IMG/VR virus record: IMGVR_UViG_3300042509_000837
Span: 1-40,921 of that record
Direction: 5' to 3' (one strand)
DNA from: a virus
DNA: 40,921 nucleotides
Shown one piece after another: positions 2,971 through 33,885 of the stretch. Position 1 is the first letter of the stretch. The number at the start of each line of letters is the position of its first letter. The notes below the pieces were generated by a model. The model did no database searches and was not told where the DNA came from. It worked only from the letters and a program-made list of their open reading frames with translations. The translations under genes and the position numbers were made by a program.

Positions 2971-3015
2971 TTTACGAATGGTCTTACGAAAGTCACAGGA
3001 ATTTTCGCTGGAAAA
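2971..3015 (+). repeat. TTACGA / CTGGAA repeat units before the second promoter
   Basis: TTTACGAATGG, TTACGAA, TCACAGGAATTTT and CGCTGGAAAA follow one another. The last two are variants of the TCACTGGAATTTT unit of the candidate origin. The final unit supplies the -35-like TGGAAA of the next promoter. Confidence 0.6.
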
Positions 3016-3037
3016 TGTCAGACCTAGGGTGTAGCAT
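3009..3037 (+). promoter_or_regulatory. Promoter of the small acidic gene run
   Basis: TGGAAA (3009-3014), 17 bp, TAGCAT (3032-3037), with the exact 18-bp TGTCAGACCTAGGGTGTA block shared with the DUF932 promoter. The same TGGAAA -35 is paired with TATAAT at 40215-40243. Confidence 0.65.
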
Positions 3038-5604: not shown

Positions 5605-5684
5605 GCCTCGTAGCCCCCAAGGTGGGGGAGCGGTCTGTAAAACCGTCGCCTTAGGCACGCTTGGTTCGATTCCAAGACGGGGCA
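5605..5684 (+). tRNA. tRNA-Tyr (GUA)
   Basis: The acceptor stem GCCTCGT/ACGGGGC pairs fully (one T-G), with D-stem CCCC/GGGG, anticodon loop CTGTAAA (GTA), a class II variable arm and T-stem CTTGG/CCAAG. A long variable arm is normal for bacterial tRNA-Tyr. Position 8 is A rather than U, which is unusual. CCA is not encoded. Confidence 0.85.
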
Positions 5685-5685
5685 C

Positions 5686-5718
5686 TTGACAAACTTGGAA
5701 AAGTGGGCCGGGGATTTC
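5686..5718 (+). repeat. TTGACAAA..GGGCCGGGG intergenic element, copy 3
   Basis: Starts TTGACAAACTT and contains GTGGGCCGGGGATTT, matching copy 2 at 2920-2952. It borders tRNA-Tyr on the left and the first DnaA-box-like site on the right. Confidence 0.6.
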
Positions 5719-5833
5719 CACAAGTTATCCACAATTGTATTACGAACCCATTACGAACGGTCACTAAAATTTCACTGGAATTTTTAAGATTACGAACCTT
5801 GAAAAATAATCGCTGGAAATGATAGGATAGGGT

Positions 5834-5941
5834 ATGGAATTTATTATCTTTATACTATTGGGAATGCTATGGCTTTCTCTTATTACTCCGCCATCAAATA
5901 AGAATGATGAGCCTATTGAGTATTGGAATAATGGTAGATAA
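5834..5941 (+). CDS. Small single-pass membrane protein (35 aa)
   Basis: 35 residues: MEFIIFILLGMLWLSLI forms one hydrophobic segment (about residues 2-18), followed by a polar tail with Asn, Asp and Glu. It lies inside the candidate origin. A TGGAAA (5814-5819) and a variant of the shared promoter block are just upstream, but a -10 at the normal distance would fall after the ATG, and the ribosome site (GGATAGGG) is poor. Translation is therefore uncertain. Confidence 0.4.
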   Translation: MEFIIFILLGMLWLSLITPPSNKNDEPIEYWNNGR

Positions 5942-5961
5942 TTAATATATTAAACATCACA

Positions 5962-5985
5962 CCGCCCCGCGATTCGCGGCGGCGG
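5962..5985. terminator. GC-rich hairpin within the origin region
   Basis: CCGCC (5962-5966) pairs with GGCGG (5981-5985) around an inner stem CCGCG/CGCGG (5967-5971 with 5975-5979). This is the only GC-rich block in several hundred AT-rich bases. It could end rightward transcription before the origin or be a structural origin element. There is no clear T-tract on either side. Confidence 0.45.
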
Positions 5986-6426
5986 TTAGTGAAGTGTATC
6001 CCTATTTACCTATATACATAACATATAAAGAATAGGATATATATCTTTCATTTCTGATAATATATCTTTATCTTTTGATAAGATTCCGGGCATTCTTGCC
6101 TATTTTTATAACAAATGTATTACGATCCCAACAAAAAAAATCACTGGAATTTTGGGCATATTCGCCCATATTTATCTAATTAGACATTACGATCGCGCCT
6201 AAAAAAATCACTGGAATATTTACCTTAAAATATTCTCATATACACGAAGTTATCCACATGTTATACACATATTACGAACGGCCTGTGGATATCTCTCAAT
6301 TTCTCAATAAAAATAACATTCTTATAACATCAATGTAAATCAATATATAATATACATGTCTTTTGGATTAGAATGGAATAATGTGGGGGAAAGTGGGGGA
6401 CTTCTTTTGATCTATTTTGATCCTAT

Positions 6427-6534
6427 TTAATACCATATCAAGGGAATAGGATTACCTTTCAGATGTACAGGATATCCTTCTTTTATGTTATCTCTATGTA
6501 TTATGTATATAGTAATTAGAGGAGGAAGAATCAT
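6427..6534 (-). CDS. Tiny hypothetical protein (35 aa)
   Basis: 35 residues MILPPLITIYIIHRDNIKEG and a Pro-rich end. The N-terminus is hydrophobic but short for a membrane span. AGGA lies 4 bases before the ATG. It is the last of four tiny leftward genes in the gap between the origin and the main leftward block. Function unknown. Confidence 0.45.
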   Translation of the reverse strand: MILPPLITIYIIHRDNIKEGYPVHLKGNPIPLIWY

Positions 6535-6562
6535 TATTCCTACCACCCCCGCCCAAAATAAT

Positions 6563-6658
6563 TTATCTTTTATCGTCATTGTTTAATATACAAGATAGAC
6601 ATATATCGCCATCCCAGGCAGGCCCATCTTGTAGGCAATCACATTCTTTATTTTCCAT
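6563..6658 (-). CDS. Tiny Cys-rich protein (31 aa)
   Basis: 31 residues with CDC near the start and CLSC near the end (ECDCLQDGPAWDGDICLSC), a zinc-ribbon-like arrangement. AAGGAGA precedes the ATG. It overlaps the upstream 45-residue gene by 11 bases, as expected for coupled translation. Confidence 0.55.
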   Translation of the reverse strand: MENKECDCLQDGPAWDGDICLSCILNNDDKR

Positions 6659-6785
6659 ATCTCTCCTTACAGGCTGCACACCATTTAGTGGAATCAAATT
6701 TACTTGTCACACTCCACTTAATCATGCACGAATACTCCGAGTGCTTGGCACTCGTACAGGTGCTTTTTGTATAGATCTTAGTCAC
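6648..6785 (-). CDS. Small Cys-containing protein (45 aa), GTG start
   Basis: 45 residues from GTG: MTKIYTKSTCTSAKHSEYSC, then KWCAACKERYGK at the end. Four Cys (with KWCAAC forming a knuckle) suggest zinc binding. It overlaps the upstream 16-residue frame by 8 bases and the downstream gene by 11. Confidence 0.5.
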   Translation of the reverse strand: MTKIYTKSTCTSAKHSEYSCMIKWSVTSKFDSTKWCAACKERYGK

Positions 6786-6828
6786 TTATGTTATCCATAT
6801 CTTCACAGATCTGTTCGAAATCATTCAT
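6778..6828 (-). CDS. Very short frame (16 aa), possible leader peptide
   Basis: MNDFEQICEDMDNISD, 16 codons, preceded by AAAGGAG at 6-base spacing and overlapping the next start. It may be a leader peptide whose translation delivers ribosomes to the GTG-started gene. Confidence 0.35.
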   Translation of the reverse strand: MNDFEQICEDMDNISD

Positions 6829-6853
6829 TTCATTCTCCTTTAGTAACCCAAAT

Positions 6854-6883
6854 CCCCCTCATGGCCGCTTGGCCAATTGGGGG
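6854..6883. terminator. Hairpin between the GT10 gene and the tiny-gene cluster
   Basis: CCCCC/GGGGG outer arms (6854-6858 with 6879-6883) and an inner TGGCC/GGCCA stem (6862-6866 with 6871-6875). It lies 64 bases beyond the stop of the leftward glycosyltransferase gene, where the long leftward transcript could end. There is no U-tract on the leftward side, so it is an imperfect intrinsic terminator. The rest of 6829-6946 shows no gene. Confidence 0.45.
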
Positions 6884-6946
6884 AGGAGGGGTTGCGTTGT
6901 GGGTGGGGTTCTATTTTTCGGCTCCCGTTTACTAATTCAACAATTT

Positions 6947-7759
6947 TCATTGTAAATAATTTAAATAAATGTAATCCTCTTTACATAAAAAATTATCTCT
7001 TACAATATTTAAATTATCTTGTATAGCATTTATTTTAGAATAATATAATTCTTTGTTAAGGTCATATAGATTAAAATCTTCTAGTAGTATTATACCGTCC
7101 ATATTAAATACGGACCCTATTTCTGGGTCGCCCCGATATATAGGGATAGTACCAGTAGCAAAACAATCTAAAATTTTTTCTGTAAAATAGCCAGGATAAA
7201 TTGAATTTTCCCAGCATATTGAAAACATATAATCTTTTAATCCATCTTCTCTGTATTTTATGGGGTTTCTTCCATTACCAAATAAATCTAGTGAGGTTTT
7301 TATAGACTCTGAAAAATTAAATCTTTTTCTAGATTCATCACCCCATATATTATCTCCAATGACTGCAGAAATCAATTTATTTTTTTCATAAATTTTTGGA
7401 TAGCGAACCCAAGTGCATTCTGCAGGCACCCATTTTATTTTTTCATGCAGATCTAACATTTTTTTGTTATGGGTAAATATATAAGTATAATTATCAATAA
7501 AATTTTTATATTCATTTATTAATAATGAATTACTTACAGGGTCTACTTCCTTAGATTCTGTAAGCCAGCCAATATTTTTTTTATTATCACTATCTACAAG
7601 GATGATATCCTCATTGAGCCAAAATATATAGTCCGCATTTTTTTTATCAAACACCAATGATAAAAATCTCGGCTGCGCTCCTGCATTAGAGTGCCAGGTC
7701 CAGTATGAAGTATACTCAGGTAGAAAATCATTAATAAAATATTTCTTTACATTACTCAT
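6947..7759 (-). CDS. GT10-family fucosyltransferase-like glycosyltransferase, copy 1
   Basis: 270 residues. The C-terminal half carries the GT10 (alpha-1,3/4-fucosyltransferase) signature: FSICWENSIYPGYFTEKILD followed by CFATGTIPIYRGDPEIG (about residues 175-215), in which the Glu-Lys pair and following residues bind GDP-fucose in the family. The N-terminal half (IFWLNEDIILVDSD) is the acceptor domain. It is closely related to the second GT10 at 15701-16531, which suggests duplication. A donor could come from the gmd/fcl genes at 18.9-20.8 kb. Sugar and acceptor are not proven. Confidence 0.85.
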   Translation of the reverse strand: MSNVKKYFINDFLPEYTSYWTWHSNAGAQPRFLSLVFDKKNADYIFWLNEDIILVDSDNKKNIGWLTESKEVDPVSNSLLINEYKNFIDNYTYIFTHNKKMLDLHEKIKWVPAECTWVRYPKIYEKNKLISAVIGDNIWGDESRKRFNFSESIKTSLDLFGNGRNPIKYREDGLKDYMFSICWENSIYPGYFTEKILDCFATGTIPIYRGDPEIGSVFNMDGIILLEDFNLYDLNKELYYSKINAIQDNLNIVRDNFLCKEDYIYLNYLQ

Positions 7760-7787
7760 TATTACATTCCATACATACTATATAAAT

Positions 7788-8078
7788 CTATATTTTATAG
7801 TCTATTGGACCGCTAATAATTCCACCCCAAGACTTGCCTGTAGGATTCTTTCTCCAATCCTCAGGAAGAATATCAGTCATACCTAATGCTCTTGCACGAC
7901 GGATGATGTGTCTTCTAGCAGCATCGTAATCTGATGCTCTGCCGACCGATTGAATTGCATTTCTTAAGTCTGCTTCATTAGCGATAGGGAAGGACCCATC
8001 TCTCATGGCTTCACCAGACTCCGCCATACGGCGTCGTGAGGCTGCAGAGTAATCTCTTTTGCTCATATCTAAATACAT
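7788..8078 (-). CDS. Virion-associated small domain protein
   Basis: 96 residues. The pattern YSAASRRRMAESGEAMRDGS, FPIANEADLRNAI, then HIIRRARALG and LPEDW is a module that, to my recollection, recurs in actinophage head-maturation or capsid-related proteins, sometimes as an extension. Here it stands alone. Function unknown. The ATG at 8078 is used because GGGAGGTGA lies 5 bases upstream; the ATG at 8093 overlaps that ribosome site. Confidence 0.65.
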   Translation of the reverse strand: MYLDMSKRDYSAASRRRMAESGEAMRDGSFPIANEADLRNAIQSVGRASDYDAARRHIIRRARALGMTDILPEDWRKNPTGKSWGGIISGPIDYKI

Positions 8079-8100
8079 GTTGTCACCTCCCATGAGACTA

Positions 8101-8694
8101 TTATACTACTCCCCAGCCCAAAGACATAGTTCTAAAATGATCTAATCTTACAGTAGTATCTAACATTATTTTTATATTGAGTTTAGACTTAACTCTAAGA
8201 CAGAAAGAAATATCTTCATTTAGATACTCTCCATACGGTTTCATTGGATCTTTAATAGATTCAATTATTCCTCTTTTCATGCAAACAAAACCAAAGCCAC
8301 ATGATCTTACTTCTTCAATATTTTTATAAAACAGAAGAGACTCTAGCGGTATTGAATACCCTTCATCATCCTGTGCTGCCAGAACACCAGCAGTAGTTAA
8401 ATAGCATCCAGAAACCATGTCGTGGTCTGATTCATATAATTTTATAAACTGGCTTTCATTCCAATGAATGTCAGAGTCTATCCAAAATAATTTATTGTAT
8501 GAATAATTCTTAAGATCATCTATTATTCTTTGCCGCGCCTGACCTACATGTGACGAGTAATTGTTAAGCCATAGCCAAGATATATTATTTTCCTCAAGGT
8601 ACTTAATTGTTTGTGTTATCGACCATACATAGTGCTGGTCAAATTTTTCTCCTGGACTAGCAATTATCACATCATAACATTTATTCATTTTCAC
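8101..8694 (-). CDS. GT-A fold glycosyltransferase (Anp1-like)
   Basis: 197 residues from GTG. It begins with a beta strand (DVIIASPGEKF), then GQARQRIIDDL and LFWIDSDIHWNESQFIKLY, where DSD is a classic metal-binding DxD motif of GT-A enzymes. MVSGCYLTT and a late HF pair also fit small mannan-polymerase-like (Anp1-type) phage transferases. No membrane segment. Its start overlaps the TAA of the upstream small gene. The donor sugar cannot be told. Confidence 0.75.
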   Translation of the reverse strand: MKMNKCYDVIIASPGEKFDQHYVWSITQTIKYLEENNISWLWLNNYSSHVGQARQRIIDDLKNYSYNKLFWIDSDIHWNESQFIKLYESDHDMVSGCYLTTAGVLAAQDDEGYSIPLESLLFYKNIEEVRSCGFGFVCMKRGIIESIKDPMKPYGEYLNEDISFCLRVKSKLNIKIMLDTTVRLDHFRTMSLGWGVV

Positions 8695-8871
8695 TTAGCC
8701 TGTTTTACGAGAGACAGCATCATACTTCTCTACCGCTGCAATAGCAGTTCTAGCAAGGTCATACCATGTCTTTGCCTCTGACTTATATGCATTCATTAAT
8801 ACATTTGCTATGTACTCTACTTTATCTATAGGCTCTTGTAAATAAATCTTAGCCTCTTCATGTATGCTCAT
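8695..8871 (-). CDS. Small helical hypothetical protein (58 aa)
   Basis: 58 residues, MSIHEEAKIYLQEPIDKVEY onward, all helical. AAAGGAG lies 6 bases before the ATG. Its start overlaps the end of the upstream 65-residue gene by 4 bases (ATGA). Family unknown. Confidence 0.7.
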   Translation of the reverse strand: MSIHEEAKIYLQEPIDKVEYIANVLMNAYKSEAKTWYDLARTAIAAVEKYDAVSRKTG

Positions 8872-9234: not shown

Positions 9235-9572
9235 TAGATTTCCTTTATCCCCTTTAAGGGTCTTCCTGCTTTAATCTTAGCCATATTAGAAAGAGTATTT
9301 GTAACAACTTCTAGCGTGGTAAGAACATTAATGTACATATCTTCTGGGTGCCAGGGGGTACCTGTGCCGCCTCCATAGGTATCGTCAAATGCCACACGAA
9401 GAACCTCAAAGAATTCATCGGCAGTAACGTAGTATGCCGTCCAGGGGTGATCTACAGTTGATGTATTTGATACGTTATTAGATGCATATACCGCAGTATG
9501 CTGAATATTACTAGGATCTACGCGCTCTTGGCTAGGAGCGGTGGAGGTAGTGACTCTGACGTTATTAGACAA
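9234..9572 (-). CDS. Hypothetical protein
   Basis: 112 residues with a Ser/Thr/Asn-rich N-terminus (MSNNVRVTTSTAPSQ) and a helical C-terminus (DEFFEVLRVAF). The start is a TTG at 9572 with AAGGAG 5 bases upstream. That start lies 55 bases inside the 3' end of the next gene, an unusually long overlap here. Family unknown. Confidence 0.65.
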   Translation of the reverse strand: MSNNVRVTTSTAPSQERVDPSNIQHTAVYASNNVSNTSTVDHPWTAYYVTADEFFEVLRVAFDDTYGGGTGTPWHPEDMYINVLTTLEVVTNTLSNMAKIKAGRPLKGIKEI

Positions 9573-10054
9573 TTTTTCTCCTTCTTAGGGTGTGTGGGCC
9601 AGTAGTAATTACATTTGTCACAGCATACTAGATCGCGGTACGTCTTAGACTCCCACTCATACTGTGGATACAATTCTGGCGCTTTTTCATACAGTCTACC
9701 ACGATGGGTAGTGATTAGTCTATGATTTTCTGGATGCCCAGGCTTAAGATAATCTGGATCTTTAAATTCATCATCACGGAAGTTTCTATTAAACGTGTCA
9801 ATAATAATTGACCAGTTGTTTTCCCACTTGTACTTCCGCTGCTCCATCTCATTCTTAATGGCATAGAGGTATCTAACGAGTTCATCTTCCGCGCCAGCAA
9901 ACATGCGTGTAGCAGGATGATTTACCCATCCCTTAGTTTCACCAGCGAGAGCGGATAGAATCTGCCGCCCTTCTAGAAGTTGTTTAACTAAGCGTTTTTG
10001 ATCAAGCACTTTAGCGCAAGCCTTGTATGATTGTTCTGGTAGAAATACTTGCAT
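9518..10054 (-). CDS. MSMEG_6728-like / pyrimidine-dimer DNA glycosylase-related protein
   Basis: 178 residues. MQVFLPEQSYKACAKVLDQK, RLVKQLLEGRQIL, GWVNHPATRMFAG and a later HR-x-x-L (THRGRLYEKAPELY) follow the actinobacterial MSMEG_6728 pattern (MQTFLP..F..SA..LD..RL.KQRVE..QIL; GW..HPAVRMW.GY), which is annotated as related to T4 endonuclease V. A C-terminal CCDKCNYYWP may bind zinc. A role in repair of UV damage is inferred. The last 18 codons overlap the TTG-started gene at 9572. Confidence 0.75.
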   Translation of the reverse strand: MQVFLPEQSYKACAKVLDQKRLVKQLLEGRQILSALAGETKGWVNHPATRMFAGAEDELVRYLYAIKNEMEQRKYKWENNWSIIIDTFNRNFRDDEFKDPDYLKPGHPENHRLITTHRGRLYEKAPELYPQYEWESKTYRDLVCCDKCNYYWPTHPKKEKNCLITSESLPPPLLAKSA

Positions 10055-11846: not shown

Positions 11847-11951
11847 TTAATATGATCTTTTGTTCTGGACCTGTCTTTTTCTTTTTATAAGATCAACTAT
11901 TTCTTCATCTAGTTCATCTTCTTCATCATCGTAATAGTATTCTAATTTCAT
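11847..11951 (-). CDS. Small charged protein (34 aa)
   Basis: MKLEYYYDDEEDELDEEIVD then a basic tail (KRKRQVQNKRSY). The ATG overlaps the stop of the epimerase gene (ATGA), so it is probably translated by coupling. The split acidic and basic halves are striking; function unknown. Confidence 0.55.
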   Translation of the reverse strand: MKLEYYYDDEEDELDEEIVDLIKRKRQVQNKRSY

Positions 11952-12958
11952 AGTCTTAGCCACTCTGGTCTATCCAGAGTCCATCTTACCGTTCTTTCTA
12001 GTGATTGTTCAAGTGAAAGGGGTGCCTTCCATCCTGTACTAGCAATTTTATCACCATCGAGGGCATAACGCAAGTCATGTCCTGGCCTGGATGAGTGGAA
12101 ATCTACCAGTTCATATTTTAATGGCTTTCCAACATAGTCTGCGACCATCTGAGCCATCTCTAAATTATTGACCTCTCTCTCGCCCACAACATGAAATTTC
12201 TGTGGTGCCTGTGACTCTCCGTATGCTGGTGTAGGCTGAGTGAGAGCATGTAGGAGGGCATCTGCCTGGTTCCTAGCATGTAAATAAAATCTACTTCCGA
12301 TCTCACCAGTAGGTGAGGCATGGATCGTCATGGTATCTCCAGCCAGCACCTTCTTAATAATCATGGGTACAAACTTTTCTGTGTCCTGCATCTCACCAAT
12401 AATGTTCATAGTATTAGTAATGATCAGCGGCACTCCGTATGTCCTCCAGTATGAATAAGCAATAGACTCCTGTGCCGCCTTGGACGCAGAGTATGGGTTG
12501 CTGGGAAAGTATTGGTCCATCCATTCACGGTGAGCATGTCCATGTGGAGCGGGTCCATATACTTCATCTGTGGATACATGAATAAACTTTTTGATATTAG
12601 AGAATCTAGCCCACTCTAGAATATTACAAACCAGAGATACATTGTTCTCAATAAACGGTACTGGTTCCTCAATTGAGCGATCTACATGGGACTCGCTAGC
12701 GACGTTGATTACATAATCAATATCTCCAATTTCATATGTTAGTACTGGAGAGAATGGGGCAGTAAGATCATGCTTGATTACTCTAACTCTTTCAAGGTTG
12801 TCATCATATCCATCTACTGCTAGGCGAATTCTATCTGTAATTCCACGGTGTCGAAAACTTACCAAACAAACTACATTCCAGTCTGTATTAGCAAGAATGT
12901 GACGCAATACATGGCTGCCAACGAAACCGCTAGCACCAGTCAATAAAACTGTTGTCAT
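11948..12958 (-). CDS. NAD-dependent sugar-nucleotide epimerase/dehydratase (dTDP-glucose 4,6-dehydratase-like)
   Basis: 336 residues, extended SDR. The Rossmann motif is GASGFVGS (8-15), the active-site Thr/Asp/Glu region is HVSTDEVYG, and the Tyr-Lys pair is in NPYSASKAAQE. The STDEVYG plus YSASKA combination is typical of RmlB-like dTDP-D-glucose 4,6-dehydratases, which make dTDP-4-keto-6-deoxyglucose. No rmlA, rmlC or rmlD is in the window, so the substrate would have to come from the host, or the enzyme acts on a related nucleotide sugar. Leftmost large gene of the core glycan island; its start overlaps the stop of the GT2 gene. Confidence 0.85.
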   Translation of the reverse strand: MTTVLLTGASGFVGSHVLRHILANTDWNVVCLVSFRHRGITDRIRLAVDGYDDNLERVRVIKHDLTAPFSPVLTYEIGDIDYVINVASESHVDRSIEEPVPFIENNVSLVCNILEWARFSNIKKFIHVSTDEVYGPAPHGHAHREWMDQYFPSNPYSASKAAQESIAYSYWRTYGVPLIITNTMNIIGEMQDTEKFVPMIIKKVLAGDTMTIHASPTGEIGSRFYLHARNQADALLHALTQPTPAYGESQAPQKFHVVGEREVNNLEMAQMVADYVGKPLKYELVDFHSSRPGHDLRYALDGDKIASTGWKAPLSLEQSLERTVRWTLDRPEWLRL

Positions 12959-17723: not shown

Positions 17724-18873
17724 TTATAATACCGCCTAACTTCTTTATATCATTACTACTAATAAACTGACTATTGCCAATGTATAATCCCAAGTCATTT
17801 AGAATATCTGCATTAGGAATATCATTAACAGATATTAAACTATATCTATATAGGAATGGATGCTTTAGAAGATTCCCTCCGACTATCGGACGGTATTCTA
17901 TTCTATATTCATTCAGCATCTCTTCAAGCCTGACTTTTGTTTCCTTAGATTTTGATATTATCGGAAAACAAAAACTACTATTGCCAGGATTTTCTGAAAT
18001 AGAGTAGAACTTATCATTATTATTTATGTAATCTCTAAAAATTTCATAGTTATTTTTTCTAATAGCAATTGATTTATCTAATTTGGATAGTTGGCTTCTT
18101 CCTATTACAGCAGGAATTTCATGATTTCTAAAGTTATACCCATCAGTTACAAATAAAAACTGCGGGGAAAGATGTGGACTCTTGGCAGCATACTCATTAA
18201 AGAATAGTGATTCTCTTGCCATTCCATGGCTTCTTTTCATTTTCATTATGTCATACAGTTCTGGGTCATTGGTGCTTACCATTCCCCCCTCAATAGTGGT
18301 CATATGGTGACCAAAGTAAAAACTATATGTAGCACCTACACTATTAACACCTATCTTATTTTTGTTTTCATCTACTGCCCCATGAGACTCACAAACATCA
18401 TCTATCATGATAGCGTTAGGAAATAGTTGTTTTAAATATTCTGTTTCTGCTGGAAATCCAAGCAGATGGGTTACAAATATAACCTTAATATCTGAATGCA
18501 TTTCAGATACATACTTTACAGAGTCCTTATCGAATGAGAAGTCTTCTAGATTAATGTCACAGAAGATAGGCTCTAAGCCTAACTGTATCACGGGGGCTAC
18601 ATTGGTAACCCAAGTACATGCTGGTAGAAGAACTTTATCTCCCTGCCTAAGACCGTACTTTTCAATTACGGCTGCTAACAGAAGAAAGTTTGCCGTGCTT
18701 CCAGAGGAAACAAACAAAGAGTGCTTTGACCCAAGCCAATCATTCCACTCATTTTCAAATGCCTCACATTGCTCACCCTTTGTAAATCTTTTAGCAGTAA
18801 GCGCAAACTTGGCAATCTTTAATCTTTCACGCACCGTTATAGCGTCGTGCATAAGAGGCCAGTCATAGTTCAT
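17713..18873 (-). CDS. colD: ColD-like GDP-4-keto-6-deoxymannose 3-dehydratase (DegT/DnrJ fold)
   Basis: 386 residues from the ATG at 18873 (GGAG 7 bases upstream). PLP-binding features of the DegT family are present: SSGSTANFLLL, PACTWVTNVAP, IDDVCESHGA (Asp for the PLP pyridine N) and SFYFGHHMTTIEGG. The residue that should be the Schiff-base Lys is His189. This Lys-to-His change is known for ColD, the PLP enzyme that removes O3 from GDP-4-keto-6-deoxymannose to make colitose precursors. The Fe-S cysteines of RfbH/E1 are absent. With gmd and fcl/colC-like genes upstream, it points to GDP-colitose or a related 3,6-dideoxyhexose. Confidence 0.82.
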   Translation of the reverse strand: MNYDWPLMHDAITVRERLKIAKFALTAKRFTKGEQCEAFENEWNDWLGSKHSLFVSSGSTANFLLLAAVIEKYGLRQGDKVLLPACTWVTNVAPVIQLGLEPIFCDINLEDFSFDKDSVKYVSEMHSDIKVIFVTHLLGFPAETEYLKQLFPNAIMIDDVCESHGAVDENKNKIGVNSVGATYSFYFGHHMTTIEGGMVSTNDPELYDIMKMKRSHGMARESLFFNEYAAKSPHLSPQFLFVTDGYNFRNHEIPAVIGRSQLSKLDKSIAIRKNNYEIFRDYINNNDKFYSISENPGNSSFCFPIISKSKETKVRLEEMLNEYRIEYRPIVGGNLLKHPFLYRYSLISVNDIPNADILNDLGLYIGNSQFISSNDIKKLGGIINDC

Positions 18874-19804
18874 TTGTATTCTCCAAAAACCATTCATATG
18901 TATTTCTAACACCAGACTCTAAACTTATACTTGACTTCCATCCAAGGTTATGGAGTTTAGAACTATCAAGTTGTCTCAATGGGGTTCCGTTTGGCTTAGA
19001 TGTATCCCAAACAATATTACCACGCCAGCCCACGATAGACGAAACAATTTCTGCAAGTTCTTTTATTGAATATGGTCTAGCAGCACCAATATTTATATGG
19101 CTATTTTCATCATAGTTATTCATTAAAAAGATTAGCGAGTCGGCAAGATCATCTACATGTAGGAACTCTCTTGTTGGAGAGCCATCACCAAATAGTGTGA
19201 CCTCATCGACATTATTCTTTTTTGCATTATGAAACTTCCAGATCATTGCTGGTATTACATGGCATTGATCAATGTTGAAGTTGTCTCTGGGTCCATATAG
19301 ATTTGTTGGCATAACTGATACAGCATTGAATCCGTACTGCTCACGATACTTCTGACACATCTTCAGGCCAGCAATCTTTGCTATCGCGTAGCCTTCATTA
19401 GTTTCTTCAAGGGGCGCTGTAAGTAGGTGATCTTCCACTATAGGTTGCGGAATTATTTTTGGATAAATGCAGGCAGAGCCAAGGAACATTAATTTCTTTA
19501 CCCCACTTTTATGTGCAGAGTCTATAACATTACTCTGTATCATCAGGTTTTCATACATGAAGTCTGCTGGATAAGATTTATTGTAGTTGATTCCACCTAC
19601 TTTTGCGGCTGCCAAAAATACATACTCTGGCATTTGAATATTAAAGAATCTTCTGACTTGAGATTGATTAGTTAAGTCTAGTCTATGTTTGTCTACAGTA
19701 ATTATATTTCTATACCCAGCGTTGTTTAATTTTTTTACAAGAGCCGAGCCAACTAAACCATTATGACCAGCAACATAGATTGATGAATCAAACTCCATTT
19801 TCAC
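18863..19804 (-). CDS. fcl: GDP-L-fucose synthase (Fcl/WcaG) or ColC-like epimerase/reductase
   Basis: 313 residues, extended SDR. Rossmann motif [13 protein letters not shown] (11-23), [21 protein letters not shown] (catalytic Ser/Cys), [12 protein letters not shown] (Tyr-Lys) and [17 protein letters not shown] are the Fcl signature. The enzyme epimerises C3/C5 and reduces C4 of GDP-4-keto-6-deoxymannose to give GDP-L-fucose; the related ColC does the last step to GDP-L-colitose. A GTG start at 19804 fits AAGGA 5 bases upstream; ATG at 19798 is possible. Overlaps gmd by 17 bases. Confidence 0.9.
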
Positions 19805-20795
19805 ACATATCCTTAACTAGATCATCGAACGTGAACTTAGGACTCCAGCCTAATTCCAACCTGGCTTTAGATGGATCTCCAATTAAACGATCTACTTCTG
19901 CAGGTCTAAAGTATCTCTCATCAACTTCAACTACCTTCTTACCAGTAATCTTATCGTATCCACATTCATGCATAAGCCTACCACGCCACTCTATATCCAT
20001 TCCAAAATATGGAGCGCACTTTTCTACAAATTGCTTAACAGTATATTCTTCACCCGTCGCTATCACATAGTCATTTGGACGCTCTTGCTGCATCATAAGC
20101 CACATAGCATACACATAATCTTTTGCATGGCCCCAGTCTCTTAATGCATTTAGGTTTCCTAATTTTAAAGTCTCTTTCTTTCCGCGTGCAACAGCGTCTA
20201 ATCCAAGAACAATCTTTCTCGTTACAAATGTTTCTCCGCGCCTGGGAGACTCATGGTTAAACAGGATACCGTTACAGGCAAACATTCCGTAAGCCTCACG
20301 GTAGTTTTTAGTTATCCAATATGCATATAGTTTAGCAACACCATATGGTGAGCGGGGGTAGAATGGAGTAGTTTCAGTTTGAGGAATTTCTTGTACAAGT
20401 CCGTATAACTCTGATGTTGCAGCCTGATAAAATTTTGTTTTTCTAATTAGACCCAATGTTTTTATTGACTCTAAAATTCTTAATGATCCTAGAGCATCTG
20501 AGTTCGCAGTATTTTCAGGTGTCTCAAACGATACCTGTACATGTGACTGTGCGCCTAGATTATACACCTCGTCTGGTCTGACACTATCAACAATATTCAT
20601 CATTGACAGAGAATCGGTAAGGTCACCATAATGTAGTTTAAGATACGGATTATCGTATAAGTGATCTATTCTTTGTGTATTAAGAGATGATGCACGACGT
20701 TTAATTCCATGAACCATGTATCCTTTTTCTAATAAAAGTTCAGCAAGATATGAGCCATCTTGTCCAGTTATTCCAGTAATTAATGCAGTTTTCAT
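19788..20795 (-). CDS. gmd: GDP-mannose 4,6-dehydratase
   Basis: 335 residues, full length. [19 protein letters not shown] (N-terminal Rossmann), [16 protein letters not shown] (NADP and GDP-binding), [16 protein letters not shown] (catalytic Thr/Ser-Glu), [10 protein letters not shown] (Tyr-Lys), [16 protein letters not shown] and [10 protein letters not shown] are all diagnostic of Gmd. It converts GDP-D-mannose, drawn from host metabolism, to GDP-4-keto-6-deoxymannose, the branch point to GDP-fucose or GDP-colitose. It heads the gmd-fcl-colD block. Confidence 0.95.
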
Positions 20796-22947: not shown

Positions 22948-23248
22948 TTATGCTTTCCCCATCTGTGACCAGACTAAGTATAGCACTCCACGTTACCTGA
23001 TTCTTATGAGAATTTCTCATATTGTCAAGCCTGCCTTCGTTTAGGTAGATGCCTCCCCACACACCGTAGGATTCTGTGTTGACACCCTCTTTAAAACATT
23101 CTTTTATTACTGGGCAAGATAAACACATTCGGTCAACTTCTCTAGCAACATCCTGGTCTGCTTCGTACTGATCAAAGTATTTATTTGTGTCTACTCCAGC
23201 GCATAGCGCTTCACTTACCCACATATTTTGCAGGTACTTTCCATCCAT
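22940..23248 (-). CDS. WhiB-like Fe-S transcription factor
   Basis: 102 residues. Four conserved Cys (C16, C42, C45, C51, with CLSCPVIKEC) ligate the 4Fe-4S cluster of the Wbl family, followed by the GVWGG turn (62-66) that contacts the sigma factor. The usual basic AT-hook region after the turn is weak (only RLDNMRNSHK). Wbl proteins bind region 4 of the primary sigma factor in actinobacteria, so this is expected to redirect host RNA polymerase. The ATG at 23248 is chosen (AGG 5 bases upstream); 23224 is an alternative. Overlaps the upstream gene by 38 bases. Confidence 0.88.
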   Translation of the reverse strand: MDGKYLQNMWVSEALCAGVDTNKYFDQYEADQDVAREVDRMCLSCPVIKECFKEGVNTESYGVWGGIYLNEGRLDNMRNSHKNQVTWSAILSLVTDGESING

Positions 23249-24203: not shown

Positions 24204-24683
24204 CTAATATATGTTGGGAAATTCTCCAGCAACTAACCATTCATTTGTTGCTATCTTAATTAATTCTAGGCTAGTCCATTGGGCAGTAAGATAGTTTGAG
24301 TCTGCCTGCCTTAATGTAACTCCAGACTCTTCAGTAAATTGTACAGTACCAGAGCCTGCTCGCGCAACCTTTATTGATGAGCCAACCTCTATTTCTTCTG
24401 TAGAATTATTTGGAACAATGAGGGTTGTGGCAGATGCTGAGTTTACTAATAGTATAGAGTTCTGCTCACTAGACATAATCATATAGGAGCCACCAGTAGT
24501 TATAGAAGAAACTTCTCTTAAAAATGATGTTTCTAGATTCGTGGTGTTAATCATGTTAATCCATGCACCATCTGAGGCTAATCGTACTGTTTTTTCTACA
24601 GTATTAAAATATACTTCTCCGTCATTAAATATCTGCGGGTCAGATGCAAGGCTTGCCATCTTTAATGTAGATACTAATCTCAT
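24204..24683 (-). CDS. Virion protein-like, tail-fibre or head-fibre type domain
   Basis: 159 residues. The N-terminal part, VSTLKMASLASDPQIFNDGE, then VYFNTVEKTVRLASDGAWIN, is the DP..AN.G..YYN...K..R...DG.W.. pattern found at the foot of phage fibre and decoration proteins. The C-terminal part (VNSASATTLIVPNNSTEEIE, then VGSSIKVARAGSGTVQFTE) is a repetitive beta domain common in phage fibres. Likely a small surface or fibre protein. Start chosen by ATGA overlap with the upstream gene. Confidence 0.65.
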   Translation of the reverse strand: MRLVSTLKMASLASDPQIFNDGEVYFNTVEKTVRLASDGAWINMINTTNLETSFLREVSSITTGGSYMIMSSEQNSILLVNSASATTLIVPNNSTEEIEVGSSIKVARAGSGTVQFTEESGVTLRQADSNYLTAQWTSLELIKIATNEWLVAGEFPNIY

Positions 24684-25191: not shown

Positions 25192-26346
25192 TTATACCTT
25201 AGATAGCAAAGTAATTTTTCTACTCTTTTTTGCCTCTATATTAATAAGTTCTATTGCCTCAGACCACTTATACTTAACCATATTTATATTAAATTGATTT
25301 GCTGCGACAATATAATTTCTTTCACGCTCTTCATTTCTAATATCTGGATCTAGTAGTTTGGTTAGATGCTTCATCCAATCCTTTGAAGACTTTGCTATTC
25401 TTCCAGCACCTAAATCCGCTAGATCCTGATACTCTTGTGTGTCAGATGCAATAAATGGTATACCTGACAAGGCATATTCAAGACCCTTTAAATTACTCTT
25501 GGCCTCGTTAAATTGATTCTTTGTCAGAGGAACTATTCCAATGTCAATAGGCATGAAGATATTAGAATAATACTGAGGTCTGGCACCCGTAAAGACACTT
25601 ACTCTTTCTGGATCAATATTCAACGCCTCTGCGATCCAGTAGGGTTTATCTAGCATGACTCCAGAATGATGAAACTTTAAATCGTATCTTTCTATAATTG
25701 TTTTGATTGGTCCTGAAAAATCTTTAAGATCATTTACGCGCCACATCATCATTCCGACCCATCCTATTGTGGGTTTATTTCCAGCGGTATCAAGTCTGTA
25801 GGTAAATGTTTTTGGGTCTAGAGAGTTTGGAACACGGTATACATTTTTATTATATCTACGCATTCTTTCTTCTAAGAATTTTGTACTTGCAATAATTCCA
25901 TCTGCGGCAGAATAAGTTGAAATAAGATGATCTCTATTATTCTCTGGATTTCTTTGTGGATCAGTAGTTATAAAGGCTAGGTTGTCTTCTGGAAGTTGTT
26001 CGAAATGGTCGTCTGTATCGACAATAACAGTCTGACCGTAACTCTTAGCAAGTTCTATATATTTAACTGCATCGTGGTGCATAAAAAGTTTAAGTACTAC
26101 TACATCTAGTTTATCAAAGCACTCGTCGTAGGTCTTAATGACCCCAGTCTTTCTATACTTTAATCTTTCTAAAGGCTTTACTGCAACAAAACCCTCGCCA
26201 TCCTTCCAGCCAATCTCACCCACCATTACCTGATGACCTATGCTTGTTAACAACATACCTGGCATAAGCATTCTTACGTTGGTGCATCCACCTGGCAGCG
26301 CCTCATAGTGGTCGCCCCAATCTGTAGAAAGAAATCCAATCCTCAT
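25192..26346 (-). CDS. GT4-like GT-B glycosyltransferase
   Basis: 384 residues, two Rossmann halves. The N-terminal MRIGFLSTDWGDHYEALPGG, then CTNVRMLMPGMLL, is the acceptor half; VIVDTDDHFEQLP and IIASTKFLEERMR lead into PTIGWVGMMMWRVNDL. The C-terminal donor half has VFTGARPQYYSNIFMPIDIG and EAKSNLKGLEYALSGIPFIA, the Glu-rich GT4 motif (E.....LE.....P.I). It lies away from the main glycan island, next to virion-type genes. Donor unknown. Confidence 0.85.
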   Translation of the reverse strand: MRIGFLSTDWGDHYEALPGGCTNVRMLMPGMLLTSIGHQVMVGEIGWKDGEGFVAVKPLERLKYRKTGVIKTYDECFDKLDVVVLKLFMHHDAVKYIELAKSYGQTVIVDTDDHFEQLPEDNLAFITTDPQRNPENNRDHLISTYSAADGIIASTKFLEERMRRYNKNVYRVPNSLDPKTFTYRLDTAGNKPTIGWVGMMMWRVNDLKDFSGPIKTIIERYDLKFHHSGVMLDKPYWIAEALNIDPERVSVFTGARPQYYSNIFMPIDIGIVPLTKNQFNEAKSNLKGLEYALSGIPFIASDTQEYQDLADLGAGRIAKSSKDWMKHLTKLLDPDIRNEERERNYIVAANQFNINMVKYKWSEAIELINIEAKKSRKITLLSKV

Positions 26347-26364
26347 TTATTCTCCATTATGTAG

Positions 26365-26411
26365 ATATGGCGGGGGCTGTTGCCGCAATGGTTTGTTTAC
26401 CCCCGCCATAT
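26365..26411. terminator. Long GC-rich inverted repeat between lysin-like and GT4 genes
   Basis: ATATGGCGGGGG (26365-26376) and CCCCCGCCATAT (26400-26411), perfect over 12 bp, around 23 bases. It lies 11 bases after the lytic transglycosylase stop and fits a transcription terminator or an mRNA-protecting hairpin; the T-tract is absent on the leftward side. Confidence 0.6.
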
Positions 26412-26422
26412 ATATTACTACG

Positions 26423-27043
26423 TTAAATCTTTTCTGGGGTACATTTCTTTGGGAATAAAGACCACCCAGTATTGAATGGTGCAATGACCCATGAATATGT
26501 TAATCCAGATCCCCAGAGGGAATAATACATTCCTGCATTCTCGTACCATGAGTCATTCTTAAATGAATATCCATAGCCCCAATTATGCATTCCATCATTA
26601 AGGAAGTGCTTCCTTACAATTTCTGATTGCTTTTCCTTGTCTAGCATATTATCTCTAGACCACCAGGATCTTCCTGACCAGGCGCTTGTCTGAATTTGCC
26701 AAGTACCTAAAGCACCTGAATACCATAAACTTGACTCATCAAGTGCTTCATGCTTTGATTCGCGCCAGGTAATTGCCCAGGCTCCTCTAAGCATTCCAGG
26801 TCTATTAAAACCCGCCTTGAACAGTATCTTTGCTTGCTTATCATTACAATTAGATGGCAACGTCCAGTTTCTATCTGTTATTGCCCTTCTTTCTAATGTA
26901 TCAGCGGTGGCAAGGTTTCCTGTACCTTCCGCCAAGGGCGAAGACTTAGCATACGCCATACTTGATGCAGCAATAAATGTAATTGCTAATACTACAACAG
27001 CAATCCAACCTACTGCCAAACCAATTTGGTTTTTTTTCGTCAT
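26423..27043 (-). CDS. Membrane-anchored or secreted lytic transglycosylase-like protein
   Basis: 206 residues. Residues 8-30 form a hydrophobic segment followed by AYAKSS, a possible signal-peptidase site. The globular part carries AWAITWRESKHEA (Glu95 the likely catalytic acid), then SSLWYSGALGTWQIQTSAWS, the SLT/lysozyme-like layout (ES...A.S..GA.G..Q). Such enzymes cleave peptidoglycan glycan strands. It is probably a lysis or envelope-remodelling factor. The ATG at 27043 follows AAAGGAGG by 5 bases. It has its own promoter and operator and a hairpin after its stop, so it is a separate unit. Confidence 0.75.
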   Translation of the reverse strand: MTKKNQIGLAVGWIAVVVLAITFIAASSMAYAKSSPLAEGTGNLATADTLERRAITDRNWTLPSNCNDKQAKILFKAGFNRPGMLRGAWAITWRESKHEALDESSLWYSGALGTWQIQTSAWSGRSWWSRDNMLDKEKQSEIVRKHFLNDGMHNWGYGYSFKNDSWYENAGMYYSLWGSGLTYSWVIAPFNTGWSLFPKKCTPEKI

Positions 27044-27073
27044 ATTGACCTCCTTTGGCGGCAACATCATTCT

Positions 27074-27102
27074 ACTTTACAGTAAAGTTTTATAGAAGTC
27101 AA
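27074..27102 (-). promoter_or_regulatory. Promoter with palindromic operator for the lytic transglycosylase gene
   Basis: On the minus strand TTGACT (27102-27097), 17 bp, TAAAGT (27079-27074). A perfect 15-bp palindrome, ACTTTACAGTAAAGT (27074-27088), covers the -10 box and the end of the spacer, the classic place for a repressor. This fits timing control of a lysis-type gene. Confidence 0.65.
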
Positions 27103-27124
27103 GAATCGCATAGCATAGAGATTT

Positions 27125-27238
27125 TTATTTTTTGGCCCAATCAATAATTTCTATCATATCTGGGTAGATAGTAACATGTGGAAGAAAGTTATAGTTAGCA
27201 CTATCTTTTACAAGACAGTAAAATGTAAAGTATCTCAT
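27125..27238 (-). CDS. Small hypothetical protein (37 aa)
   Basis: 37 residues: MRYFTFYCLVKDSANYNFLP and more. It follows the stop of the 55-residue gene by 2 bases; the ribosome site (GAGTAGG) is weak. Unknown function. Confidence 0.5.
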   Translation of the reverse strand: MRYFTFYCLVKDSANYNFLPHVTIYPDMIEIIDWAKK

Positions 27239-27240
27239 AC

Positions 27241-27408
27241 CTACTCGTCATAGTCCCATCGTATTATCATCATTGCATACTTTAATCCCTGGGCAAACCA
27301 TTGACCCTGCTGAGAGTATTCTTCTGCAAATGGAGGATTAATACATTCCTCAATTTGTTCTGAGAATCTATCTCGCCAATACTTTTGACATTCATCACTA
27401 GTATGCAT
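27241..27408 (-). CDS. Small hypothetical protein (55 aa)
   Basis: 55 residues from MHTSDECQKYWRDRFSEQIE, helical, ending IRWDYDE. It begins 8 bases after the 3' end of tRNA-Asn; a longer frame upstream would be a translation of the tRNA and is rejected. Family unknown. Confidence 0.6.
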   Translation of the reverse strand: MHTSDECQKYWRDRFSEQIEECINPPFAEEYSQQGQWFAQGLKYAMMIIRWDYDE

Positions 27409-27415
27409 TTCCACG

Positions 27416-27487
27416 CTGGCCTGGTAGGATTCGAACCTACAACCCATCGGTTAACAGCCGATTGCGCTGCCATTGCGCCACAGACCA
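27416..27487 (-). tRNA. tRNA-Asn (GUU)
   Basis: The minus strand gives acceptor stem TGGTCTG/CAGGCCA, anticodon loop CTGTTAA (GTT) and T-stem GTAGG/CCTAC around TTCGAAT. The discriminator is G, as usual for tRNA-Asn. CCA is not encoded. Confidence 0.93.
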
Positions 27488-27499
27488 CTATATAAATCG

Positions 27500-27570
27500 C
27501 TGGAGAATCAGGGGTCGAACCTAAACTAAATGTTCCAAAGACATTTGTGCTGCCATTACACCATTCTCCA
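27500..27570 (-). tRNA. tRNA-Gln (UUG)
   Basis: The minus strand gives a perfect acceptor stem TGGAGAA/TTCTCCA, anticodon loop CTTTGGA (TTG) and T-stem TTAGG/CCTGA. It is 12 bases upstream of tRNA-Asn, and the 101-nt inverted-repeat element ends 3 bases before it. CCA is not encoded. Confidence 0.92.
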
Positions 27571-27573
27571 TAA

Positions 27574-27674
27574 CCGATATGCCAGCGGGTAACTACACCA
27601 TCCCAAGGTATCTGCACGTTTGACTAACTTCATGCTGGTATCAACCGCGTAACTCGGCATTGCTGGCATATCGG
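27574..27674 (-). ncRNA. Candidate structured RNA: 101-nt element closed by a 13-bp stem
   Basis: CCGATATGCCAGC (27574-27586) is the exact inverse of 27662-27674. The 75 bases between hold smaller stems (for example GGT/ACC around TGAT, and GGG/CCC around the GGTGTAG segment) and no credible gene. It directly abuts tRNA-Gln and starts 3 bases after the stop of the gene at 27678. It resembles no tRNA I can fold (no T-arm or U33-type anticodon loop). Candidate small RNA or processing element. Confidence 0.45.
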
Positions 27675-27677
27675 AGT

Positions 27678-28037
27678 CTATTTAGTTATATCGAAGGGGG
27701 AACCTTCCCAAACCTTCTTCATTCTGTTAACTATTGCTTTAGACCAGGAAAACCCTGCGTCACCGCCCCAGGCTTCCCACATAATTCTTCCATTAGATGG
27801 AAAGCCTTCTTCTCCAGAATTAAAACCCTTACCTTTCTTATCTACTTCATGTCTAGAAAAATAAGAGTACATTCTTTTTACTGTATCTAAAGATAGATTT
27901 TCTTTGTTTGCAAGTTGACTTGCTCTAGTCCATCCAACAGATGTACCAGCGCCTTTTGCTTTTCCTTCTTCTTTCCATTTTAAAGCACGGCGTGCCGCTG
28001 CTGCCATAGAATCTGTAGGTTTGTATGTCTCAGCCAT
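27678..28037 (-). CDS. Conserved phage module protein
   Basis: 119 residues. RRALKWKEEGKAKGAGTSVG, WTRASQLANKENLSLDTVKR, MYSYFSRHEVDKKGKGF and MWEAWGGDAGFSWSKAIV form a module that, to my recollection, recurs in phage head-maturation and other structural proteins (helix, then S-x-DTVKRM..FF.RHEVDK, then GD.G..W). Standing alone here, its role is unknown. Its 5' end overlaps the 43-residue gene by 8 bases. Confidence 0.7.
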   Translation of the reverse strand: MAETYKPTDSMAAAARRALKWKEEGKAKGAGTSVGWTRASQLANKENLSLDTVKRMYSYFSRHEVDKKGKGFNSGEEGFPSNGRIMWEAWGGDAGFSWSKAIVNRMKKVWEGSPFDITK

Positions 28038-28161
28038 CGTATTTCTCCCATCTCCAAAAACTTATGTAGTATGCATGAAAATGTGTGTTGCAAGCATAGG
28101 TCTTAGTTTCATTTCTTTCTCCAACCCATTCCGCTGGCTGACCACAAAATTTGCATTCCAT
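28030..28161 (-). CDS. Small zinc-finger-like protein (43 aa)
   Basis: 43 residues MECKFCGQPAEWVGERNETK, then CNTHFHAYY. A CKFC knuckle and a C-x-x-H pair imply a zinc site. The C-terminus (SFWRWEKYDG) is aromatic. Overlaps the next gene by 8 bases. Confidence 0.65.
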   Translation of the reverse strand: MECKFCGQPAEWVGERNETKTYACNTHFHAYYISFWRWEKYDG

Positions 28162-28165
28162 AGTA

Positions 28166-28693
28166 TTATAGCATTCCAAGTTTGCTTGCATAGTCATACA
28201 TCATAATGCCGCTTGCGACACTAACATTAAGACTTCTTACACTACCAAGTTGTGGAATCATTACAATATCATCAGCCATACCCAAGCCCATTGGACTTAC
28301 ACCTCTAGCCTCTTCTCCGAAAATCATAAAGGTATTTGGAGTCCATTCGTATTGAGTGATAGGAATTGCTCCAGGAACATTATCTACTGCCACCCAGCGC
28401 ATATCTCTAATATTTGGCTCGTTAAGATAGATGTGGTCAAGAGATGGGGCATACTTCAAATGGATATAGTTATGAGTTCCTACGGCACCGCGACGGTCCC
28501 ATTTTTTATTTCCAATAATCCAAGATTCTTTAGCAAGAAATGCATTGCTATTACGAATTCCAGAAGCCTTATTAAAGTCTCCAGAGATGTTCTCAAATCC
28601 CACAACAAAGGGAAGACGTTTTGTATCTAGATCAGCCTTAACCTGATCTGTTTCCCACTCTTTGTAGTAGTCAATAACATTATGACTCTTCAT
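28166..28693 (-). CDS. SpoU/TrmH-family RNA 2'-O-methyltransferase
   Basis: 175 residues, the catalytic SPOUT domain only. Motif 1 is GDFNKASGIRNSNAF, motif 2 is FMIFGEEARGVS and motif 3 is VMIPQLGSVRSLNVSVASGI: the N/R, GxExxG and P..G...SLNVS..A knot motifs that bind SAM. The size is close to that of TrmL, which modifies tRNA wobble nucleotides, rather than larger rRNA enzymes. The substrate is unknown; the tRNA-Asn/Gln pair lies 0.6 kb downstream in the same transcript direction. Confidence 0.9.
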   Translation of the reverse strand: MKSHNVIDYYKEWETDQVKADLDTKRLPFVVGFENISGDFNKASGIRNSNAFLAKESWIIGNKKWDRRGAVGTHNYIHLKYAPSLDHIYLNEPNIRDMRWVAVDNVPGAIPITQYEWTPNTFMIFGEEARGVSPMGLGMADDIVMIPQLGSVRSLNVSVASGIMMYDYASKLGML

Positions 28694-29021
28694 TAGAATA
28701 TGCTCCAGTACTGTAGATAAGATACATCATTGACTTTTCATCATCAGTTAGATCATCTGACTCAGGCCAGGTATCTGACCTATCTGTTAAGTATATATAA
28801 GACTTACCATCATTGTCCATCATTAAATCAATGAATCCTTTAAACCACAGACTGCTCATAATATCTGAGTCTTGCTCTTTCATCCATTGGGCCAATTCTT
28901 TTTGCTCTTTATAAAATAACTCTGTTAGTTTATATATAGGGTCGCCAGCAACATTATATGAAACGACCTCTACATAGCCGTATTCAACGAACATCTTTAA
29001 TATCTCTTCATTCATGTCCAT
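28680..29021 (-). CDS. Acidic hypothetical protein
   Basis: 113 residues. The first part (EEILKMFVEYGYVEVVSYNV, then GDPIYKLTE) looks like a small winged-helix domain; the rest is acidic (SDTWPESDDLTDDEKSM) and helical. AGGA lies 5 bases upstream of the ATG. It directly follows the terminase large subunit gene (8 bases). Confidence 0.65.
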   Translation of the reverse strand: MDMNEEILKMFVEYGYVEVVSYNVAGDPIYKLTELFYKEQKELAQWMKEQDSDIMSSLWFKGFIDLMMDNDGKSYIYLTDRSDTWPESDDLTDDEKSMMYLIYSTGAYSNEES

Positions 29022-29029
29022 ATAAATCC

Positions 29030-30799: not shown

Positions 30800-31314
30800 C
30801 AGAAGCCTTCTGCCTTTCCAGTAACCTGTTCCAGCCTAGTAAACACTTCCTTCTTGCAATGGCTGCAATCTGACACCACTTCTTTTAAAATTTTTACAAG
30901 AATCTCCTGCTTACGTTCGGTTTCTATTATCTGTTCTGCAACCTCACTATCTTCAATGAGGCCAGCCTTCTGAAGCATATCTATTTGTTTTTGCTGTATG
31001 TCTGCGACTAGTTTAATCCCAGCAGTCTTTTTAGAAAGATCTCCTTGAGTCCCAGATTGACTAATAACATCCCAGCCTTCCTCTATAAGCATAGAGTAAT
31101 GTTTATCCGCACCAGCCAAAGCCTCTCTAGCACGCATCTGGATCTGCCTATCACTCTGAATAACTGAACGCCATTCATTTAAATAGTCCTGAACATCTGT
31201 TCTTTTAAAACCTGTTACTCTTGCTATCTGGTTAGGATTAGTTGTTCCTTTTAAGAATAGGTCAACAACTTTATTGATTCGTTCCCAGCGATCCGCAAGT
31301 TCTAATTCAGACAT
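30799..31314 (-). CDS. terS: Terminase small subunit-like protein
   Basis: 171 residues. The N-terminal DRWERINKVVDLFLKGTTNP, then NQIARVTGFKRTDVQDYLNE, is a helix-turn-helix that fits DNA recognition by TerS; a long helical oligomerisation region follows (ERKQEILVKILKEVV) with a C-terminal CSHC. Position directly upstream of terL supports the call. Sequence alone cannot exclude another HTH role. Confidence 0.8.
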   Translation of the reverse strand: MSELELADRWERINKVVDLFLKGTTNPNQIARVTGFKRTDVQDYLNEWRSVIQSDRQIQMRAREALAGADKHYSMLIEEGWDVISQSGTQGDLSKKTAGIKLVADIQQKQIDMLQKAGLIEDSEVAEQIIETERKQEILVKILKEVVSDCSHCKKEVFTRLEQVTGKAEGF

Positions 31315-31606
31315 CCATCTTCTTTCTTATGCTCTTTTTAGCGCGAACAATTCCTTTTAGTTTATCAACATAGAAGGAACGATATTCCCCAGTAGCAGGA
31401 GAAAAACAATCTATCCAGGTAACATCTTTTTTAATATTATGCGCCAATTGTATGAACCTAAATGTACCACGAATATCTTTAAACTTAAGCATATCCCCTG
31501 GCTTGATAACTTCTTTGCCAAACTTAAGTTCATAGAATACTGAGATATCTGGGTTTACTAGATACTTAGGTCGATCTTCTGGATTGGAATTGTTTTTTCT
31601 AGCCAT
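31307..31606 (-). CDS. Conserved actinophage small protein
   Basis: 99 residues from MARKNNSNPEDRPKY. The centre (KPGDMLKFKDIRGTFRFIQL, then AHNIKKDVTWIDCFS) and the end (GEYRSFYVDKLKGIVRAKK) form a small beta-barrel-like fold that I have seen in many actinophages near terminase or replication genes; no function known. The ATG at 31606 is preferred over a longer start. Overlaps terS by 8 bases. Confidence 0.7.
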   Translation of the reverse strand: MARKNNSNPEDRPKYLVNPDISVFYELKFGKEVIKPGDMLKFKDIRGTFRFIQLAHNIKKDVTWIDCFSPATGEYRSFYVDKLKGIVRAKKSIRKKMDV

Positions 31607-31619
31607 GACTCTCCTGTCA

Positions 31620-31796
31620 TCAGGTAGCGAATCCGCTACCACCGCGAGTTGGTGCCCAAACCATTCCTGGACTATCTATGTTCCTAATCATCCTAATTCC
31701 ACAGCCTGGACAGATGGCGCTGTCCCTTTCATCAATCTTTAGCATGAGTTCAGTAGATGACTCACACTCTATGCATGTAAATGTATATAGAGGCAT
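31620..31796 (-). CDS. FmdB-family zinc-ribbon protein
   Basis: 58 residues. MPLYTFTCIECESSTELML, then CPGCGIRMIR, is the FmdB/CxxC regulatory zinc ribbon (MP.Y.F.C..C...E, then C..CG). The role is unknown; the ribbon may bind nucleic acid or protein. The start is set by the 1-base overlap with the upstream gene (MPLYT is the conserved start). A Gly/Ser end completes it. Confidence 0.85.
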   Translation of the reverse strand: MPLYTFTCIECESSTELMLKIDERDSAICPGCGIRMIRNIDSPGMVWAPTRGGSGFAT

Positions 31797-33883: not shown

Positions 33884-33885
33884 AA

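Follow-up and report, generated by a model that had tools for sequence, protein, structure and literature searches.

Does the intergenic repeat region at which the two gene blocks of this phage fragment converge act as a replication origin? The window, that is, the whole stretch of DNA analysed here, is the entire IMG/VR fragment of 40,921 bases. It encodes its own DnaE, primase, SSB and UvsX-type protein (recombinase), and DNA searches of the phage collection, with the whole window and locally, returned no matches. A sequence-only reading had proposed a candidate origin in which DnaA boxes surround two kinds of iteron. The convergence that it described is present, with tRNA-Tyr (+) on the left and leftward genes on the right, as are all four boxes (two TTATCCACA, one TTATACACA and an inverted ATATCCACA), the six TTACGA(A/T)C repeats and the second type of repeat, of which at least three had been claimed. 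A tandem element pair at 2972-3023 and a degenerate box at 5715 had been missed. The features are as follows.

2972..3023, + strand: tandem element pair, directly upstream of the promoter-like TGTCAGACC...TAGCAT (3016)
5605..5685, + strand: tRNA-Tyr(gta), last gene in the rightward block and left edge of the region
5715..5723, + strand: degenerate DnaA box ATTTCCACA, which reads ATATCCACA in L016; 10 bp ahead of the next box
5725..5733, + strand: DnaA box TTATCCACA, invariant in 4 relatives
5739..5758, + strand: two ATTACGAAC half-sites, 11 bp apart
5751..5780, + strand: bipartite element TTACGAACGGTCACTAAAATTTCACTGGAA
5790..5820, + strand: bipartite element TTACGAAC...TCGCTGGAAAT, upstream of TAGGAT (-10-like) and a 35-aa reading frame
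5834..5941, + strand: putative small reading frame MEFIIFILLGMLWLSLITPPSNKNDEPIEYWNNGR, read by eye; start kept in L007 and L016
5961..5988: GC-rich, terminator-like hairpin ACCGCCCCGCG-ATT-CGCGGCGGCGGT, kept in 4 relatives
5990..6110: AT-rich candidate unwinding element of 26% GC, containing a 21-bp tandem repeat (6039, 6060)
6104..6321: conserved island of non-coding DNA that shares 89% identity with G003 (92% within 6117-6300)
6120..6150, + strand: bipartite element TTACGATC-N13-TCACTGGAAT
6187..6217, + strand: bipartite element TTACGATC-N13-TCACTGGAAT
6250..6258, + strand: DnaA box TTATCCACA
6261..6269, + strand: DnaA box TTATACACA, 11 bp past the preceding box; TTATCCACC in L007
6271..6279, + strand: ATTACGAAC half-site
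6284..6292, - strand: inverted DnaA box ATATCCACA (TGTGGATAT), invariant in 4 relatives

All six copies of ATTACGAWC in the window lie on the + strand at 5739-6279 (5739, 5750, 5789, 6119, 6186 and 6271), with none elsewhere; 0.6 copies are expected, and six were reached in none of 100 shuffles. TCACTGGAAT is exact at 5772, 6141 and 6208 and takes the form TCGCTGGAAAT at 5810. The compound repeat noticed earlier at 6120 and 6187, TTACGATC-N13-TCACTGGAAT, is real, and further compound matches occur at 5740 and 5751 and, under another pattern of the element, at 5790. What had been described as two kinds of iteron are instead the two halves of a single bipartite element, TTACGA-N13-15-TCACNGGAA. 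Pattern scans of IMG/VR for this element yielded 18 and 29 contigs, part of the matches being due to chance, and the refined pattern has no match in 4 of the first 18. The consensus of 68 distinct copies is ATTACGAAC-N-AAAAAATCACNGGAATTT, with TTACGA separated from TCAC by 14 bases in 42 copies, 15 in 14, 13 in 11 and 12 in one, which places the two halves about two helical turns apart. Each of 15 long relatives carries 1-6 copies per record, all on one strand of that record, and the reversed control gives none. The search in relatives proposed with the original claim thus found the repeats present. Same-orientation direct repeats of this kind (six TTACGA half-sites and several bipartite units) are what an iteron replicon would have.

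Several other leads from the element were set aside. In the genome collection the element gave 38 single hits dispersed over unrelated taxa, which we read as chance, with no host or prophage lead. A CRP/GlxR site was considered because TGTGA-N6-TCACA is found in several elements, but it has no occurrence in the window, G003, G006, G008 and others, and a search of these phages for a Crp-type HTH found none. Palindromes TGTGA-N6-TCAC(A/T) lie in or beside elements and promoters of some relatives (L051 5695, L056 806, G021 95433, G015 20539 and 21617, and the G025 and G024 block) and are a lead only. The orientation of dispersed element copies is constant relative to dnaE; the comparison covers just two groups, too few for the copies to be used as polarity markers.

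Both TTATCCACA boxes and the only TTATACACA of the window fall at 5725-6269. The number of such boxes is not in excess (3 observed, 2.35 expected), and it is their clustering within 545 bp that is unusual (P about 5e-4). Every TTATCCACA of the window, of G003 (106 kb) and of G010 (82 kb) sits in this locus. Across the 15 relatives TTATCCACA occurs 82 times compared with 9 for the reversed control, and in a set of 12 genomes or fragments 30 of 68 boxes have an element no more than 600 bp away, where 3.3 would be expected and permuted 9-mers average 0.4, with a maximum of 4. Boxes on the same strand are spaced by 11 (15 times), 12 (7 times), 13 (twice), 21 (7 times) or 43 bp (twice); some sources are near-identical or the same contig (G000/G010, L059/G024), so that these spacing and co-occurrence counts are somewhat inflated, while the pattern is independent of them. 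The DnaA boxes are therefore helically phased (11-13, 21 and 43 bp) as well as clustered and co-oriented, as in a DnaA-dependent origin. In G015 (27269-27404) and in G017, five TTATCCACA follow one another on one strand with an exact 21-bp period; the terminal array of G019 has seven boxes within about 110 bp. In L008 and L020, no perfect box accompanies the elements.

A Bac_DnaA domain was looked for in the 15 relatives and found in none, so the boxes imply the DnaA of the host, and the combination noted earlier of host-type boxes with the phage's own DnaE and primase holds. A DnaB-type helicase is found in 11 of the 15. No initiator (rep) gene was seen among the selected neighbours of the locus in the window and relatives, which match glycosyltransferase, proteasome-like, carbamoyltransferase, epimerase or unassigned families; a remote or unrecognised initiator may still exist. 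An HslV/proteasome-like gene follows the cluster in several relatives (L008 3290-5599, L012 8994-9542, L051 8085-8603), accompanied in L008 (3290-5599) by a carbamoyltransferase gene. The window itself carries nucleotide-sugar epimerase and glycosyltransferase genes (6947-7759, 11948-12958, 18863-20795 and 25192-26346), which suggest surface or DNA glycosylation, and a Pyr_excise (pyrimidine-dimer DNA glycosylase) gene at 9518-10054.

Between the window and G003, the island at 6104-6321 stands alone: the flanks at 5801-6100 and 6322-6678 fail to align, as does most of 6322-8719. Coding genes elsewhere are 75-99% identical, and the identity of the island is by itself unexceptional; what matters is its isolation within unalignable non-coding DNA. 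A coding origin of the conservation was ruled out by single-base indels in A-tracts and by the lack of a long common frame. Boxes, elements, hairpin and AT-rich repeat are all kept in the window and three close relatives. The description of the region as very AT-rich applies only in part, the repeat region being moderately so (34% GC compared with 39% for the window); the stretch at 5990-6110 reaches 26% GC, yet the AT-richest DNA of the window lies within a gene, at 6950 and 7430.

The uncultured relatives are all fragments. Among cultured phages, each of the eight Streptomyces isolates checked, which belong to Stanwilliamsviridae and kin, has a DnaA-box constellation: in six, a pair of boxes spaced by 12-13 bp is joined by a third at a distance of about 250 bp, and the other two have an inverted pair 22 bp apart. 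In the three inspected (Wakanda, NootNoot and Annadreamy) the constellation is found within an unannotated 1.3-1.5-kb gap, with variants of the TTACGA element alongside. By this distribution, the locus is ancient. A matrix trained solely on metagenomic element copies finds seven copies in Wakanda, all on the strand opposite dnaE, with scores of 22-34 bits, where ten shuffles reach no more than 9.3; the strongest of these are dispersed, outside the DnaA gap. Single elements in NootNoot and Annadreamy score no higher than the shuffle range; the best-scoring places in NootNoot and two of the best in Annadreamy fall in the DnaA gap.

The chief rival to an origin is a transcriptional control hub, in which the element would be an early-promoter operator and the boxes would serve host DnaA as a transcription factor or for titration. 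We consider this reading a serious possibility, if a distinctly less probable one than the origin. It draws on a strand-biased family, TGTCAG[AC]CC-N4-TG-N-TANNNT, which over 13 sequences occurs about 100 times on the block strand, compared with 6 times on the opposite strand and 8 times for a control. Typically 6-14 copies are found per long relative, mostly within the block of small genes (window 1825 and 3016; G003 25805-34199; also G006, G008, G021, G025 and others), and TGTCAGACC-N4-TG-N-TANNNT is a newly seen putative phage promoter. A promoter-like motif lies within 135 bp downstream of 20 of 43 element copies, as for a phage promoter operator, and the first cluster of the window (5739-5820) precedes the -10-like TAGGAT and the small reading frame. 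The element is not origin-specific and, being also placed before promoters elsewhere, is not an origin-only iteron. The 68 boxes divide into 21 within 300 bp upstream of a promoter of this kind, 29 in promoter-less element clusters and 18 elsewhere. Unlike the block copies, however, those at 6120 and 6187 are followed by no promoter-like motif, and the same holds for the terminal copies in most relatives. These promoter-less copies face the converging block and carry the densest DnaA arrays (the five of G015 and the seven of G019) together with the conserved island, and the Wakanda elements are antisense to the flanking genes, all of which speaks against a hub devoted to transcription.

Alternatively, the true origin may lie at the divergent end of the rightward block, at the skew minimum, leaving the present region accessory or secondary; this seems improbable to us. 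A minimum of cumulative GC skew is the classic sign of an origin and a maximum that of a terminus. The inflection predicted for the window exists, but it is a maximum (at 5494) because the gene blocks converge here, and the minimum, a supporting rather than strictly defining sign of DnaA origins in phages, does not fall at this locus. Genes run co-directionally through the gap in Wakanda and Annadreamy, where the skew does not turn; they converge at the gap in NootNoot, where it does. The skew therefore reports gene direction, and we discarded it as evidence on the origin. In G006 (23040-23170) and G008 (24330-24490) a second repeat region with TTCACCCTA units, AAGAGCTCTTTT palindromes and TGTGGATAA boxes occupies the divergent junction, DnaA boxes and TTCACCCTA direct repeats lying within about 100 bp of the skew minima (23229 and 24552, respectively). 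With DnaA boxes and direct repeats of its own, this minimum could be a second or alternative origin, as in P1. G021, G022, G023 and G025 also have DnaA clusters at that end, clear ones in G021, G022 and G025, which counts against an origin at the convergent locus. On the other hand, G003 has no TTATCCACA there, the skew again tracks gene direction, and the window excludes that end.

A physical genome end, in the form of a packaging or terminal-repeat boundary, is less probable still. In NootNoot (MF347636, 120207-120964) the terminal repeat of 10,787 bp opens at 120300, 29 bp past the last DnaA-like box, and holds the elements. Five of 20 contigs (G010, G006, G021, G026 and G014) terminate no further than 1.2 kb from the cluster, compared with 0.94 expected; a physical end, a recombination boundary and an assembly break are possible readings. 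However, the recorded repeats of Wakanda and Annadreamy (1,773 and 789 bp, respectively) start about 5.5-6 kb away, and contigs may also break at the adjoining variable genes. Least likely of all is an attachment, partition or structural RNA site, which the intergenic position beside a tRNA gene and an RNA fold z-score of -1.9 might suggest: neither tyrosine integrase nor ParB_N, either of which would mark a temperate phage or phage-plasmid, was found in 12 relatives (fragments, so incomplete), only tRNAs match Rfam, and the fold is matched by 8 of 200 shuffles.

The best explanation, to which we give about even chances, is a DnaA-assisted origin-like region whose repeat is shared with an early-promoter regulon. 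The candidate-origin proposal thus survives as a conserved non-coding DnaA-box repeat region and loses its exclusivity, the element standing before promoters as well. The observed anatomy, conservation, phasing, co-occurrence, lack of a phage DnaA and promoter association point to a composite cis-acting hub that most likely serves a lineage of lytic actinophages as a replication origin. Host DnaA would bind the phased box set, while a putative sequence-specific DNA-binding protein of phage or host, whose existence we infer, would bind TTACGA-N13-15-TCACNGGAA with both halves on one helical face. Together they might open the adjacent AT-rich DNA, on which the DnaB-type helicase, primase and DnaE of the phage could then start. 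As the element, often accompanied by DnaA boxes, also lies upstream of promoters, the same factors would serve both initiation and early transcription. Binding and initiation are what we infer throughout, and both can be tested in culturable relatives.

Less probably, an entire lytic actinophage lineage with its own DnaE, primase and helicase may base its early programme on host DnaA, phased DnaA boxes and a shared bipartite operator driving both the origin and a family of early promoters; if true, phage takeover would be tied to the replication initiator of the host. In actinophages, little has been mapped of the way in which large phages that bring their own replisome select and open an origin. 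The DnaA constellation common to uncultured freshwater and cultured Streptomyces phages provides a concrete, testable candidate for an origin in phages that can be cultured, and it suggests that such phages still depend on host DnaA, and the bipartite element with its promoter family provides a first handle on their early regulon.

Among the closest known systems are the Stanwilliamsviridae (Wakanda, NootNoot, Annadreamy and kin), which share DnaE at 54-56% identity, the DnaA constellation in a large gap and related elements; the uncultured relatives differ in AT-richer sequence and in having small genes in an inverted block next to the gap. Cluster K mycobacteriophages reportedly carry start-associated sequences, a repeated intergenic motif near gene starts, whereas the element described here is bipartite and longer, lies in clusters with DnaA boxes and, in Wakanda, is antisense to genes. 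With P1 oriR and RK2 oriV the locus shares phased repeats of the initiator type and host DnaA boxes, next to which its AT-rich stretch is a candidate counterpart of their unwinding element; of the two DnaA-box arrays of P1, the second is a compensating origin (PMC4980987). In contrast to these replicons, no linked rep gene, ParB or integrase was found here, the repeat also occurs at promoters, and the lineage looks lytic, with its own polymerase, primase and helicase. Some extrachromosomal mycobacteriophage prophages use a RepA-like initiator, with origins linked to repA and parABS and no mention of DnaA in the text (PMC7157519); theirs too are actinophage origin elements, but of prophages. 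Finally, in alphaproteobacterial phages the sites of host CtrA are concentrated in part of the phage genome and DnaA sites have no asymmetric distribution (PMC9437464), whereas here it is the DnaA boxes that cluster; common to both is the concentration of sites for a host cell-cycle regulator in one part of the genome.
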